From Luteitalea pratensis (GTDB taxonomy: Bacteria; Acidobacteriota; Vicinamibacteria; Vicinamibacterales; Vicinamibacteraceae), in assembly GCF_001618865.1 (NCBI RefSeq), contig NZ_CP015136.1, positions 6,173,001 through 6,237,000 of the forward strand: a DNA stretch of 64,000 bases. The letters run 5' to 3'. The notes under the pieces were generated by a model, which was not told the origin of the DNA, did no database searches, and saw only the letters and a program-made list of their open reading frames with translations. This document shows, piece after piece, positions 7,091 through 58,396 of this stretch. Position numbers and translations under genes: made by a program. Each line of letters opens with the position of its first letter. Within the stretch, counting starts at the first letter, position 1.

Positions 7091-7112
7091 GGTGCGTCTC
7101 CTACGCAGGGTG

Positions 7113-7337
7113 GCCGGCTCGGAGAGCCGGCCCTACCCGTTGCCGGACTCGGAGAGCCGGCCTTACCGTTGCCGGACTCGGGGAGCGAGCCCTACCTTCA
7201 CGGCGTGTCGGGCACCGACAGGCCGGCCCTGCCGTCTTTCACCGCGGCGGGCCGACCGCGCCCTACTCGTAGGCGTCGAGCTTGCTCGACGCTTCGTCAT
7301 CGACGGTAGGGCCCGTTCTCCGAACGCGGCCCTGACG
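7113..7337. repeat. Cluster of REP-like palindromes with GTAG signature
   Basis: A tight series of short palindromes. On the minus strand: GTAG-linked GCCGGCTC-TCC-GAGCCGGC at 7113-7136, a degenerate copy at 7142-7167 (GTAA instead of GTAG), a third at 7171-7195, and two looser ones at 7207-7234 and 7244-7266. On the plus strand: GTAG followed by GCGTCGAGCTTGCTCGACGC at 7269-7292, and GTAG followed by a CGTTC-TCC-GAACG stem at 7306-7332. A tetranucleotide GTAG 5' of an imperfect hairpin is the hallmark of REP elements mobilised by RAYT transposases. No RAYT gene is in this window. Confidence 0.75.
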
Positions 7338-26540: not shown

Positions 26541-27296
26541 ATGTCTGTCGATGGCGCCAGGCACGCGTCGTCGCACCATCCCGCGTGGACGAGATGCGCC
26601 CACTGGGTCGCGGCCGTGAGCATCCTGGTGCTCGCCTTCACGGGTTTCGTGATCCTGATGGCACATCCGCGACTGTACTGGGGTGACGTCGGGAACGGCT
26701 TGACGCCTGCCCTGATCGAGTTGCCCATCAGCCCCAATTACCGGCACGGCGGGTGGGCGTCGGTGACGCCGTTCTTCGATCGCACGGGCTCACCCGTGTC
26801 GGCAAGCCGCACGTTTCCCCTGTTCAACGAAAATGCATGGGGGCGCAGCCTGCACTTCCTCACGGCCTGGCTGCTCACCCTTACGGGGCTTGCGTACCTC
26901 GCGGCGGGTGTCCTGACGGGGCACCTTCGACGCCGCATAGTGCCCGCCGCTGGTGATCTGGCGCCCGCGCGCCTCAGCGAGGACGTGCGGCGCCACGTTC
27001 GCTTCGCGGTCCGGCGCGATGCCGGCTCGCCGTATGGCACGCTGCAGAAGATCGCCTACACGTTCGTGATCGTCTTCTTGCTGCCGCTTGCCGGCCTCAC
27101 CGGTGTCACGATGTCGCCTGCAGTGACGACGGCCTTTCCGTTCCTGCTCACGCTGTTCGGCGGCATGCAATCGGCGCGCACGATTCACTTCGGGGTGTGG
27201 ATGGCGCTCATGGGATTCCTCCTGGTGCACGTGGTGATGGTGGTGGCAACGGGATTCCGTCAGCACATGCGCGCGATGACGATTGGTGACCGATGA
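26541..27296 (+). CDS. Cytochrome b/b6-domain membrane protein
   Basis: A 251-residue di-heme cytochrome b561-type protein. His residues that could ligate heme appear in TRCAHWVAAVSILVLAF, SLHFLTAWLLTLTGLAYL, QSARTIHFGVWMAL and LLVHVVMVVATGF, each in a transmembrane segment. It should move electrons between quinone pool and the molybdenum enzyme encoded next; its stop overlaps that gene's ATG. This parallels the MsrQ/MsrP and b561-sulfite-oxidase pairs. Confidence 0.9.
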   Translation: MSVDGARHASSHHPAWTRCAHWVAAVSILVLAFTGFVILMAHPRLYWGDVGNGLTPALIELPISPNYRHGGWASVTPFFDRTGSPVSASRTFPLFNENAWGRSLHFLTAWLLTLTGLAYLAAGVLTGHLRRRIVPAAGDLAPARLSEDVRRHVRFAVRRDAGSPYGTLQKIAYTFVIVFLLPLAGLTGVTMSPAVTTAFPFLLTLFGGMQSARTIHFGVWMALMGFLLVHVVMVVATGFRQHMRAMTIGDR

Positions 27297-28063
27297 TGAC
27301 AAGGCGAGCGATCCTCACCAGGCGCGACATGATCGTGACGGCTCTCGCCGGCGCGGGAGGTGTACTGCTGTCAGGCTGCAGTCGCGGTGAACTGCCACCG
27401 ACGTACGGGCACCTGCTGCGGATGGGTGACAACCTCACGTACGCCGCGCACCGCGCGCTCTTGCCACACGGGCTGGCGCGTGAGTACGGGCGTGAGCACA
27501 TCTCCTCGTTCCCCGCGATCGGGACCACGAACCCCGCGGACCCTAGCCAGCCCCTGGCGGCGACGTTGGGTCAGCGTTACGCCGGCTTGCGAGCCGGCGC
27601 GTTTCGCGACTACCGCGTGTCGATCGAAGGACGCGTTGCAAGGCCCGGCACGTACTCGCTGGCGGACCTCCAGCGCTTCCCCAGCCGCACGCAAATCACG
27701 CGGCACACGTGCGAAGAAGGCTGGTCGGCCATCGCGGAGTGGACGGGTGTGGCGCTGGGTCGTGTGCTGGCCGCTGCCGGCACGCTGCCGGACGCGCGGT
27801 TCGTCCAGTTCCACGCCTTCGACGGCCTGGGGGACGGCATCGACATGATCGATGCGCTCCACCCGCAGACGCTGCTCGCCTACGGGATGAACGGGCAGCC
27901 GCTGCCGATCCCGCACGGCGGTCCGCTGCGGCTCCGCGTGGAGACGCAGATCGGCTACAAGAGCGTGAAGTACATCGACCGCATCGTCGTCACCGACACC
28001 TTCGAGGACCACGGCCCTGCGGGGTACCTCCATTACGGCTGGTCGTGGTACGCCGGCATCTGA
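27293..28063 (+). CDS. Molybdopterin-dependent oxidoreductase, Tat lipoprotein
   Basis: A 256-residue protein of the sulfite oxidase fold. The N-terminus has twin arginine and a lipobox (TRRDMIVTALAGAGGVLLSGC), so it is probably exported folded and lipid-anchored. The Mo-ligand cysteine is in TRHTCEEGWSAIAEWTGV. Later IPHGGPLRLRVETQIGYKSVKYID is typical of the family. Only the catalytic domain is present (no dimerisation domain), as in MsrP. With the overlapping cytochrome b gene it forms a periplasmic reductase or oxidase; the substrate cannot be told from sequence. Confidence 0.92.
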   Translation: MMTRRAILTRRDMIVTALAGAGGVLLSGCSRGELPPTYGHLLRMGDNLTYAAHRALLPHGLAREYGREHISSFPAIGTTNPADPSQPLAATLGQRYAGLRAGAFRDYRVSIEGRVARPGTYSLADLQRFPSRTQITRHTCEEGWSAIAEWTGVALGRVLAAAGTLPDARFVQFHAFDGLGDGIDMIDALHPQTLLAYGMNGQPLPIPHGGPLRLRVETQIGYKSVKYIDRIVVTDTFEDHGPAGYLHYGWSWYAGI

Positions 28064-28078
28064 CGCCACGACAGTGGA

Positions 28079-28277
28079 GGCCGTCGGACTGTGGTTGTGT
28101 AGCCGTCGACCTTGGTCGACGGTCAGCGACGGCCGTCGTGGTTCGAAATTCAGATTCAGAGTGAACCCTGACCAACAGTCCGGTTCTACACGGTGAGACC
28201 GGGCGCGATCGGCGGCAGCGGCCGTCGGACTGTGGTTTGCGTAGCCGTCGACCTTGGTCGACGGTCAGCGACGGCGA
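28079..28277. repeat. Three-element REP cluster (BIME-like)
   Basis: Two direct copies of a roughly 55-bp unit contain GTAG followed by the perfect hairpin CCGTCGACCTTGGTCGACGG (GTAG at 28099 and 28241; hairpins 28103-28122 and 28245-28264), flanked by CGGACTGTGGTT upstream and TCAGCGACGGC downstream. Between them, on the minus strand (28162-28189), GTAG is followed by a different palindrome AACCGGAC-5-GTCAGGGTT. The plus-minus-plus array fills the spacer between convergent genes. Confidence 0.75.
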
Positions 28278-28284
28278 CCGCCGA

Positions 28285-29838
28285 TTATCGCCGCGTGACC
28301 GTCGTGCTGTCGAAGTAGCGGTACTCGCGATCGCCGACGCGAACGATGGACAGCTCGCCCGTCACCGCGTAGCGCCCATCGGGCGTGCGCGCCGTGTGAT
28401 CGGTGGTCGTGGCGGATCGCCGGGCTGGACCTGCGGCACGCGCGGCGAATGCCTCGTCGAGGGCGCGCCCCTGCACTGAGGGTGGGATTGCCAGGCCCAC
28501 CAGGGTCAGGAACGTCGGCATGAGGTCTACATTGGCGCTCGGTGCGTCAATGGTCAGGCCGCGCCCGAGATCGGGGCCGGCAGCAATCAGCGTGTTGTGG
28601 ACGTCCCATGGGCTCGAGCTGCCGTGCCCCGCGGTGCCGCCCGCCATGACCGAGCCCCGCACTCCGTGCGCGTTCGGTGCGTCCGACCAATCCGGCGAAA
28701 ACAGGATCTGCGCCGACCGATCGTGCTGCCAGTGCACGACGTCGAACGACAGCGTGCCGGCCACGTGGCCATCGAGGGAACCAGTCTGCGTTGCGCGTGT
28801 GAATATCGGCCCGATGCCAGGCGTCTGCTGCAACCCGCGCACGATGGCGGCCACGGTCTCCTCGTCGCGATCGCGCACATGGATCGCGCCGCCGCTGGCG
28901 ACGATGCGTGGTGTGCCATCTGGCATCGTACCCATGTACGGCTTCAGGATCGCGGAGACGTCCACCGCGCCCGTGTGCGTGGAGAAGCCGTGGTCAGACG
29001 AGACGCAGATGTTTACCGCATCGAGCAGGCCCGCAGCTTTCAGGCCGTCCTCGACGCGGCCGATCTCGCGGTCGAGATGCTCGAGCACCGCGACTGCTTC
29101 CGGACCGCCGATTCCCTTCGAGTGCGCGGTCGAGTCGAGCGATACGAGCCAGAGCACGCTGACCGTGGGACTCACGCGCGGCAGCCCGACCTTCAGGAAC
29201 GCGTCCACGGCATAACGGTCGCGTGCCATGGCCTGCCCATCGCCGGCCGGCGGGTCGCCAAGTGCCGCAAGGGCACCACGTAGTGTTTCGGGGATCACGA
29301 ACTCCGGATGCACCACCGCACCGCCGGCCACGGTTGGATCGTTGAGCATCGCCGAGCCTGGCGACCCGGAGCTTGCAACGAACATCCGTTTGCCCGCCGC
29401 CTGCAGGACCTCGGCGAGGGTGGGCGCCGTCAGCAACTTGCCCTCGACCTCGGCGATACGGGATAAGGCCTGCCGATTCGCGGTGTCGAGGAACCGCGCC
29501 GGATCGACGCGCGGAAAGTAGACGCTGTTGCCCATCAGACCGTGCGTGCCGGGGTAGGCGCCAGTCGCAAAGGACGCACCGTTGACGCGAGTCACCGTTG
29601 GGAACACCGCATGGTGTTTCGTGAAGACAACGCCCCGCTTGCCGAGCGCGGTAAGACGCGGCATCACGTCGGCGGTGACGTAGTCGGGCCTGAGGCCGTC
29701 CACCACAATCAGGACGTGCCGCCGCGGAGGCGCCTGGGCCGTCATCGCCGCCACCAGGCAGACTGCGATCAGGGCCGAGACGACAACCAGAGCACGAAGG
29801 TCGGATCCCAGGCGCATGATGCTGGTCACGCCGCGCAT
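28285..29838 (-). CDS. Alkaline phosphatase superfamily / nucleotide pyrophosphatase-like protein
   Basis: About 517 residues, secreted (hydrophobic ALVVVSALIAVCLVAAMTAQA). The type I phosphodiesterase fold is clear: HVLIVVDGLRPDYV (metal Asp), FPTVTRVNGASFATGAYPGTHG (Thr/Asn active-site region), VSLDSTAHSKG and CVSSDHGFSTHTG (Asp-His metal ligands), then SSPWDVHNTLIAAGPD. It likely hydrolyses phosphodiesters or nucleotides in the periplasm. Start could be ATG 29838 or ATG 29817; neither has a strong ribosome-binding site. Divergent from a PadR gene. Confidence 0.9.
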   Translation of the reverse strand: MRGVTSIMRLGSDLRALVVVSALIAVCLVAAMTAQAPPRRHVLIVVDGLRPDYVTADVMPRLTALGKRGVVFTKHHAVFPTVTRVNGASFATGAYPGTHGLMGNSVYFPRVDPARFLDTANRQALSRIAEVEGKLLTAPTLAEVLQAAGKRMFVASSGSPGSAMLNDPTVAGGAVVHPEFVIPETLRGALAALGDPPAGDGQAMARDRYAVDAFLKVGLPRVSPTVSVLWLVSLDSTAHSKGIGGPEAVAVLEHLDREIGRVEDGLKAAGLLDAVNICVSSDHGFSTHTGAVDVSAILKPYMGTMPDGTPRIVASGGAIHVRDRDEETVAAIVRGLQQTPGIGPIFTRATQTGSLDGHVAGTLSFDVVHWQHDRSAQILFSPDWSDAPNAHGVRGSVMAGGTAGHGSSSPWDVHNTLIAAGPDLGRGLTIDAPSANVDLMPTFLTLVGLAIPPSVQGRALDEAFAARAAGPARRSATTTDHTARTPDGRYAVTGELSIVRVGDREYRYFDSTTVTRR

Positions 29839-56414: not shown

Positions 56415-57235
56415 TGGCGCATCACACCTCCTTCCGTTTCAATCGCGTGACGCAAGCGACGTGCCTGGTCGCGCTGACACTGGTGGCGCTGGTCACGGGT
56501 GTCCCCGTGCCCCATCCGGCGACCGCGGCGGCGACGCAGCCTGCGGCTCGACGGGTCATCGCGCTCGCCGAACCGGGCCAGACCATCCACCAGCCATTCG
56601 CTGACGCCGCGCTGCGGTGGCTCCGCGAAACGGCGACGACTGAGGGCTTCGTCGTCGACTACATCCGCACGACCGATCCGATCGACGAGGCGTATCTCGC
56701 TGCGCACGATCTGTTCATCCAGGTGAACTACCCGCCCTATCGCTGGACGCCGGTGGCCGAGGCCGCTTTCAAGAAGGCCATGGAACAGGGCACCATTGGA
56801 TGGGTCGGGTTCCACCACGCGTCCCTGCTCGGCAAGTTCGATGGCTTCGAGATGTCGCCCTTCTTCCATCAGTTCATGGGCAGTATCGTGTTCAAGAGCT
56901 ACATCCCGGATTTCGCGACGGGCGTGGTGCACGTGGAAGATGCCGCGCATCCCGTCTTCAGTGGACTGTCCTCCACATTCACTATCGAGAACGACGAGTG
57001 GTACACGTACGACCGGTCGCCCCGGCCGGACGTGCGGGTGCTGGCGACCGTCGACGAGCAGAGCTACGATCCGCCGCGCACGGTGAAGATGGGCGATCAC
57101 CCGGTGATCTGGTCCAACCCGCACTACAAGGCCAGGAACGTGTACTTCCAGTTCGGCCACAAGAAGGAGTTGCTCGACAGCCCCACCTTCACGCGGCTTT
57201 TCCTCAACGCCATCCGGTGGGCGGGCGCACGTTAG
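56411..57235 (+). CDS. ThuA domain-containing protein
   Basis: A 274-residue exported ThuA-like protein: signal peptide to about residue 40, then VIALAEPGQTIHQPFADAALRWL, VNYPPYRWTPVAEAAFKKAMEQGTIGWVGFHHASLLG (flavodoxin-like core), GVVHVEDAAHPVFSGL, ENDEWYTYDRSPRPDVRVLATVDE and PVIWSNPHYKARNVYFQFGH. ThuA proteins act with Gfo/Idh/MocA dehydrogenases in 3-keto-sugar pathways. Co-translated with the DUF1080 gene. Confidence 0.92.
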   Translation: MMAHHTSFRFNRVTQATCLVALTLVALVTGVPVPHPATAAATQPAARRVIALAEPGQTIHQPFADAALRWLRETATTEGFVVDYIRTTDPIDEAYLAAHDLFIQVNYPPYRWTPVAEAAFKKAMEQGTIGWVGFHHASLLGKFDGFEMSPFFHQFMGSIVFKSYIPDFATGVVHVEDAAHPVFSGLSSTFTIENDEWYTYDRSPRPDVRVLATVDEQSYDPPRTVKMGDHPVIWSNPHYKARNVYFQFGHKKELLDSPTFTRLFLNAIRWAGAR

Positions 57236-57628
57236 GGCAGGAACACAGGAGCACAGGAGCCACAGGAATGCAGGAGCACAGCGAGACGCGAGGCGGCCTT
57301 CGTCATGCGGCCATCCGCCTTCGCCAAGGCTTCGGCTGACAAGTCGTAAGGACGGTAAACGCCCGCGAAACGGACGTAGCCGTCGAACTTGTTCGACGGT
57401 CAGCGGCAGAACACGGGAGACGCCACGCGCGACCGGCCTTCGTCTTTCGGCCATCGGCCTTCGTAGTGGGATGTGAGCGCGAACACGGACGTAGCCGTCG
57501 GACTCCCACGATATTCGCGCCTACGGCCTACGGCCTGCAGCCTACCTGGAGCGGATATCGTGACTACCAGTGGCGCAGGCGCCATGGATCACTTGTCCGG
57601 CGCGCTTCCCGCGGGACAAGTCCCGCGG
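57236..57628. repeat. Gene-free island of REP and heptamer repeats
   Basis: This 393-bp spacer between convergent genes has no credible gene. It contains an 8-9 bp periodic ACAGGAGC tract (57244-57280), heptamer arrays at 57295-57322 (GGCCTTC, GTCATGC, GGCCATC, CGCCTTC), 57435-57462 (GGCCTTC, GTCTTTC, GGCCATC, GGCCTTC) and 57520-57547 (CCTACGG, CCTACGG, CCTGCAG, CCTACCT), a REP element with GTAG at 57376 and hairpin CCGTCGAACTTGTTCGACGG at 57380-57399, and a broken copy with GTAG at 57491. Confidence 0.72.
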
Positions 57629-58396
57629 CTAGATCCCACGGTCGAGCAGAAACCGGACGCTGTTGTCGATCATCGCTGGCAGCACGGGAGTGGAATAGAT
57701 CCGGTCGCCGTGACCGTAGTTGAGGTAGACCATCCTGAACCTGGTGTTGATCCAGGCCACCGGGACGTCGCCACCGTTGAGCGTGTTCTTCACGCCCAGC
57801 GGAAAGTTCGACGCGTCCAGTGTCAGCAGCACCTTGACGTCCGGATTGGCGCGCGGACTCGGTGTCCATGCGTACCACTCGTTGATCGGCGCAACGAACG
57901 TCGGCGGCGTGCCCTTCACGATCGGGTGTCCGGCGTCGTCGACGTTGACGCGCGCCGGCAGCGATGGCCAGTTGCTGGCGGCGAACCGGCTACCCCCCAT
58001 GAACTCGGTGAACCATGGCCATGCGGCGGTGCCGAAGCCGGAGACGTGGAATCCGAGCCACGCGCCACCACCGGCCATGTATCGTTCGAAGGCCTGACGC
58101 TGCGCTGGTGTGCGGGGCATGTCGTTCAACCAGATCACCAGACCGACGTCGCGGAGGTTGGTGTCGTTCAGCGCCTCCCAGTCGGTCGTCGCCGCGAACG
58201 CGTAGCCGCCGTCGGCGGCCCCGGCCGTCAAGGCGCGCATCGCCTGCTGGGCGAACAGGACATGATCGAGTTCGCCGCCAGCCGTGAAGAACGCCAGCAC
58301 GCGCGGACGCGGCGCGGCGGTCGGCTGAACGGCGAGTACGCCGGGCCCCACCAGCAGCCACGCGACGCCGACGATCGAAGGCAGGACGCTGTTCAC
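57629..58396 (-). CDS. ThuA domain-containing protein
   Basis: A 255-residue exported protein: hydrophobic SVLPSIVGVAWLLVGPGVLAVQ, then RVLAFFTAGGELDHVLFAQQAMRAL, VIWLNDMPRTPAQRQAFERYMAGGGAWLGFHVSG, VNVDDAGHPIVKGTP, INEWYAWTPSP and DVPVAWINTRFRMVYLNYGHGD. It is a second, divergent ThuA-like protein. The start is unsure: GTG 58396 fits a signal peptide but lacks a ribosome-binding site; the frame stays open through the divergent promoter region. Confidence 0.86.
   Translation of the reverse strand: MNSVLPSIVGVAWLLVGPGVLAVQPTAAPRPRVLAFFTAGGELDHVLFAQQAMRALTAGAADGGYAFAATTDWEALNDTNLRDVGLVIWLNDMPRTPAQRQAFERYMAGGGAWLGFHVSGFGTAAWPWFTEFMGGSRFAASNWPSLPARVNVDDAGHPIVKGTPPTFVAPINEWYAWTPSPRANPDVKVLLTLDASNFPLGVKNTLNGGDVPVAWINTRFRMVYLNYGHGDRIYSTPVLPAMIDNSVRFLLDRGI

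Follow-up and report, generated by a model that had tools for sequence, protein, structure and literature searches.

Duplicated GTAG-tagged REPs between two convergent genes of Luteitalea pratensis belong to a genus-wide class, most likely spread by a RAYT mechanism

Two direct REP units between convergent genes

A short array between two convergent genes of the soil acidobacterium Luteitalea pratensis consists of locally duplicated REPs of a genus-wide class, here termed class A, which were most likely spread by the RAYT/TnpA-REP mechanism; we put the probability of this reading at roughly 85%. The array was found in a stretch of 64,000 nucleotides that was analysed as a whole (the window; G000:C1:6173001-6237000) and belongs to a genome of 7,480,314 bases in one contig (G000). 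The features at the array, in window positions, are as follows:

27293..28063, + strand: upstream gene with a molybdopterin-dependent oxidoreductase domain (PF00174, by Pfam), reading towards the array
28079..28133, + strand: direct unit 1, 55 bp, holding a class A REP; 96% alike to unit 2
28099..28122, + strand: class A, C-type REP in unit 1, GTAG followed by CCGTCGACC-TT-GGTCGACGG; covariance model, 42.6 bits
28164..28189, - strand: claimed inverted REP, GTAGAACCGGACTGTTGGTCAGGGTT, judged to be no REP from copy number, covariance model, and fold
28220..28275, + strand: direct unit 2, 56 bp, holding a class A REP; 96% alike to unit 1
28241..28264, + strand: class A, C-type REP in unit 2, with a hairpin identical to that of unit 1; covariance model, 42.6 bits
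28285..29883, - strand: downstream gene for a type I phosphodiesterase (PF01663, by Pfam), reading towards the array

The two nearly identical units of about 55 bp, each with GTAG and a hairpin, had been described in the original prediction and were borne out. In both, GTAG is followed by the hairpin CCGTCGACCTTGGTCGACGG, and both fold well as single-stranded DNA (z of -4.6 for unit 1 and -3.0 for unit 2). The REP proper is shorter than the unit, as only about 4 + 20 bp and a short TC(A/G)GCG tail recur elsewhere. The 18 bp upstream of the REP core are present in both units as well, which points to a local duplication; the array is a C/C direct doublet. The stretch GCCGTCGGAC that flanks the units (28079-28096 and 28220-28237; also at 57491-57526) shows similarity to the left arm of the related hairpin CCGTCGGACTTGTCCGACGG and is perhaps a truncated REP half. 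No REP was present at the orthologous site of the congeners G001 and G004, where the upstream gene is conserved; since the downstream gene differs too, the site does not qualify as cleanly empty.

The extragenic location, which was scored at the array only, could also suggest that the hairpins are transcription terminators or stabilizers of mRNA 3' ends, kept by selection rather than spread by transposition. The array sits exactly in the gap between two convergent genes, and known REPs are mainly found downstream of genes, many of them plausibly transcribed (PMC3733652). However, no T-run follows the stem, a scan of window positions 27000-29500 gave no Rfam match, and termination would leave the GTAG tag, the subtype pairing rule, and the RAYT linkage described below unexplained. 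We consider this explanation improbable, while termination or stabilization may be a secondary role of the array hairpins.

A dispersed family of GTAG-tagged hairpins

The array hairpin is not unique in the genome: it has 91 matches within 3 mismatches, 24 of them perfect, against 0 for a reversed control pattern, and at least 132 class A matches were found with a covariance model. Among all 256 tetramers, GTAG ranked first directly before perfect stems of at least 8 bp, with 44 sites where about 1.2 were expected from the all-tetramer rate; these density figures refer to a 464-kb sample, made up of the window and 20 stretches spaced evenly along the genome. The view that GTAG-tagged hairpins are REPs was thereby confirmed.

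Sorted by stem, the hairpins comprise class A, with a CGTCGA core and a loop of TT or TTCA, class B, of the form GGACGGCTC-TCC-GAGCCGTCC, and further related groups of smaller size. Class A consists of GTAG and a perfect stem of 9-10 bp closed by a TT or TTCA loop, the lower stem being variable and the loop conserved. Across 37 distinct sequences of class A and related hairpins, both partners had changed in 7 of the 9 stem pairs, and 99.7% of cells were paired; the covariation count is inflated, as these seeds for the covariance model had been selected for their perfect stems. Most differences among the 91 near-copies, which were found by similarity to a single sequence, are compensated pairs as well. 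Four further members lie in the window:

7112..7136, - strand: class B REP, GGCCGGCTC-TCC-GAGCCGGCC, of the class that flanks intact RAYTs; sequence search
7269..7292, + strand: class A, G-type REP, GCGTCGAGC-TT-GCTCGACGC; covariance model
57376..57399, + strand: class A REP variant, CCGTCGAAC-TT-GTTCGACGG, with a compensated C-G to A-T pair; covariance model
57609..57632, - strand: related hairpin, CCGCGGGAC-TT-GTCCCGCGG, with the mutated tag CTAG; covariance model, 26.5 bits

The third of these, with the full hairpin CCGTCGAACTTGTTCGACGG, is the related stem that had been noted at 57.4 kb. Low-complexity sequence with repeated CGGCCTTCGTC/GGCCATCGGCC-like words surrounds it (57200-57500). 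In the sampled stretches, comparison of class A strand with GC skew revealed neither a clear bias nor a clear skew. As far as can be read from sequence, the array units are GTAG-tagged REPs, with the tag directly 5' of a palindromic stem, many dispersed copies, and a cognate RAYT flanked by the same REPs.

A failed inverted member and a genome-wide pairing rule

The original prediction had presented the array as a BIME-like plus/minus/plus arrangement of two REP subtypes. Its flanking direct units stand, while its inverted middle member does not. The sequence GTAGAACCGGACTGTTGGTCAGGGTT occurs once in the 7.48-Mb genome with up to 3 mismatches allowed and scores 0.1 bit with the family covariance model against 42.6 for each flanking unit. 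Its fold is unremarkable, as 16% of GTAG sites, and likewise of random 28-mers, reach the same energy. The middle element was therefore rejected as a second, inverted REP subtype and, being the sole inverted candidate, took the plus/minus/plus BIME at 28079-28277 with it. On the simplest reading, a GTAG happens to stand next to a weak palindrome in the spacer. It is improbable that a true BIME stood here, of which the middle G-type REP has decayed past recognition: although the flanking units share an orientation, the spacing of the middle GTAG (41 and 51 bp) resembles that in BIMEs, and alternating orientation is the rule elsewhere in the genome, the three results on the middle element argue against it, and same-orientation C/C doublets exist elsewhere (10 of 13 same-orientation pairs).

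The original prediction had proposed sorting the genome's GTAG hairpins by orientation and testing for a BIME spacing bias, and inverted pairing of the BIME type was indeed present. Among class A neighbors within 250 bp in G000, 37 of 50 pairs were inverted. GTAG-C was joined with GTAG-G in 35 of the 37 inverted pairs, against 2 of the 13 same-orientation pairs (Fisher p = 1.5e-7); the loci counted were mostly chosen for holding a class A copy, which should favor neither combination. The congener G001 showed the same pattern (16 of 19 inverted against 1 of 5 same-orientation pairs), with different prevalent stems (GCGTCGGCC, CCGTCGGCC, and CCGTCGCCC). Judged by these counts, the BIME organization of class A is real genome-wide, though not at the array locus. 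The pairing rule offers a simple, testable prediction of which two hairpins a RAYT joins.

Two kinds of RAYT genes

Two intact RAYT genes of one kind, RAYT-B, were detected at 4.000 Mb and 1.498 Mb with PF01797 and protein searches, each adjoining class B hairpins; they score 85.3 and 94.7 with NF047646 (REP_Tyr_transpos; cut-off 80). The third gene, RAYT-A, lies among class A hairpins (G000:C1:5981718-5982168, minus strand) and is split over two frames. When joined with one X, its pieces reach 64.1 bits with the same model and cut-off. All three pass the Pfam cut-off for Y1_Tnp, and the HUH histidines and a candidate catalytic tyrosine are invariant across a five-protein RAYT alignment. Being single, the frame break of RAYT-A could be a sequencing error.

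The surroundings of these genes were inspected as well. The RAYT-A locus (L036; G000:C1:5980227-5983343) carries class A REPs on both sides of the frameshifted gene and several decayed REP-like stretches downstream. Directly beside an intact RAYT, about 14 class B units are repeated in tandem with a 56-bp period (L009:484-1240; G000:C1, about 3,999,440-4,000,200). At 2.12 Mb (L010/L011; G000:C1:2121113-2124366), fragments of an IS200-like Y1 transposase, interrupted by an in-frame stop, lie next to an apparent second transposase gene. This locus has no GTAG hairpins nearby and appears to be what is left of a broken IS200-type element.

The closest relatives of RAYT-A are open, with 59% identity in G004 and 54% in G001. 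In all three species (3/3), RAYT-A is flanked by class A REPs, with a C-type upstream in direct and a G-type downstream in inverted orientation. The gene neighborhood also looks alike when partly out-of-frame ORF listings are judged by eye: G000 and G001 share a family-9 glycosyltransferase-like gene upstream of RAYT-A, and G000 and G004 share a solute-symporter-like gene on its other side. Class A itself had between 27 and at least 133 covariance-model matches per genome in 5 of 5 genomes of the genus, none in 2 of 2 genomes of the sister genus, and traces of 1-13 matches elsewhere in the order. On this distribution, class A is a genus-wide REP class. Searches for RAYT-A gave no match in G002 (27 class A copies) and G003 (at least 130), both of which are fragmented drafts. 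RAYTs of other genera in the order (L055, L060-L062, and others) come with distinct GTAG hairpins of their own, which are often arranged as short tandem arrays.

To explain stems that share only GTAG, the original prediction had offered either a single tolerant transposase or a set of RAYTs, and both hold in part. By association, the three RAYT genes of G000 represent two kinds with a hairpin class apiece, and within each class the stems show much compensated variation, suggesting that one RAYT would process all variants of its class; the middle unit of the array is not a second subtype. Tolerance could also extend across classes, if the intact class B RAYTs mobilized class A REPs in G000. Class A does keep many identical copies (24 perfect) despite its frameshifted RAYT, and the neighborhood of one RAYT-B gene (L012) also contains a degenerate class-A-like hairpin. 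Nevertheless, the RAYT-B genes adjoin class B hairpins, whose loop differs, class A accompanies RAYT-A in three genomes of the genus, and published REP/RAYT pairs co-evolve (PMC8266576, PMC2817692), all of which makes such cross-mobilization unlikely.

Proposed mechanism

According to published work, RAYTs are flanked by their REPs and co-evolve with them (PMC2817692), every RAYT is paired with a REP family of its own (PMC6006769), and group 3 REPs, which are perfect palindromes, tolerate changes at the base of the stem, while a loop base is critical in assays (PMC8266576). Class A, in which the lower stem varies and the loop is conserved, agrees with these rules, and we therefore take its hairpins to be what RAYT-A acts on. 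Under this model, a class-A-specific HUH tyrosine transposase would recognize the single-stranded GTAG hairpin and cleave next to it, thereby spreading REPs, mostly as inverted pairs of the subtypes GTAG-C and GTAG-G, which may represent the two ends of a REP-RAYT-REP unit. Because RAYT-A is frame-broken, class A is probably not spreading now in the G000 strain, and its copies there are probably relics, provided that neither intact class B RAYT mobilizes them.

A more specific version is tentative, and we think it rather less likely than its negation. Here, the C-type hairpin would be the left end and the G-type hairpin the right end of an IS200/IS605-like unit (C-REP > RAYT < G-REP, the arrangement in the three species), and BIMEs its gene-less derivatives; in G000, the family would have outlived its own transposase and persist as an orphan or be cross-mobilized by another RAYT. 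With its frame-broken RAYT-A and still abundant REPs, G000 presents a natural case for the fate of REPs once their transposase dies.

Comparison with known systems

In a 2013 survey, hosts of GTAG REPs were Proteobacteria, Cyanobacteria, Chloroflexi, and the PVC group, with Acidobacteria represented only by relatives flanked by TIRs (PMC3733652). Searches of open papers turned up no account of these repeats in the genus; the genus and the hairpin sequences thus appear undescribed as a REP/RAYT system, for which we do not claim priority. Reported here from an acidobacterial genus are two REP classes, with a dedicated RAYT for each.

The group 3 REPtrons of Stenotrophomonas maltophilia (Sm) and Marinomonas (Mb) share with class A the GTAG tag, a short perfect stem, a tiny loop, and a dedicated RAYT, and the stem-base changes that they tolerate and their critical loop base in published assays agree with class A, where the lower stem varies and the TT loop is conserved (PMC8266576). 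Class A differs from them in its acidobacteriotal host, its stem and loop, and its frameshifted RAYT, and is known here from sequence. The BIMEs of Escherichia coli, built from Y and Z2 palindromic units, are likewise inverted pairs of two REP subtypes, and the yafM RAYT is flanked by both Y and Z2, just as RAYT-A has one of each subtype (PMC2817692). Class A stems, in contrast, are perfect and lack the E. coli bulge, and it is the first stem pair, C-G or G-C, that determines their subtype. The TIRYTs and TIRtrons of Acidobacteria are also IS200-like tyrosine transposases with flanking repeats in Acidobacteriota, but these repeats, unlike classes A and B, are unrelated to GTAG REPs (PMC3733652). 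Class 3 TnpA-Y1 transposases are IS200-like and have flanking repeats as well, with a CnGA tag instead of GTAG (PMC6006769). Throughout, the array and its family match the known REP/RAYT/BIME system.
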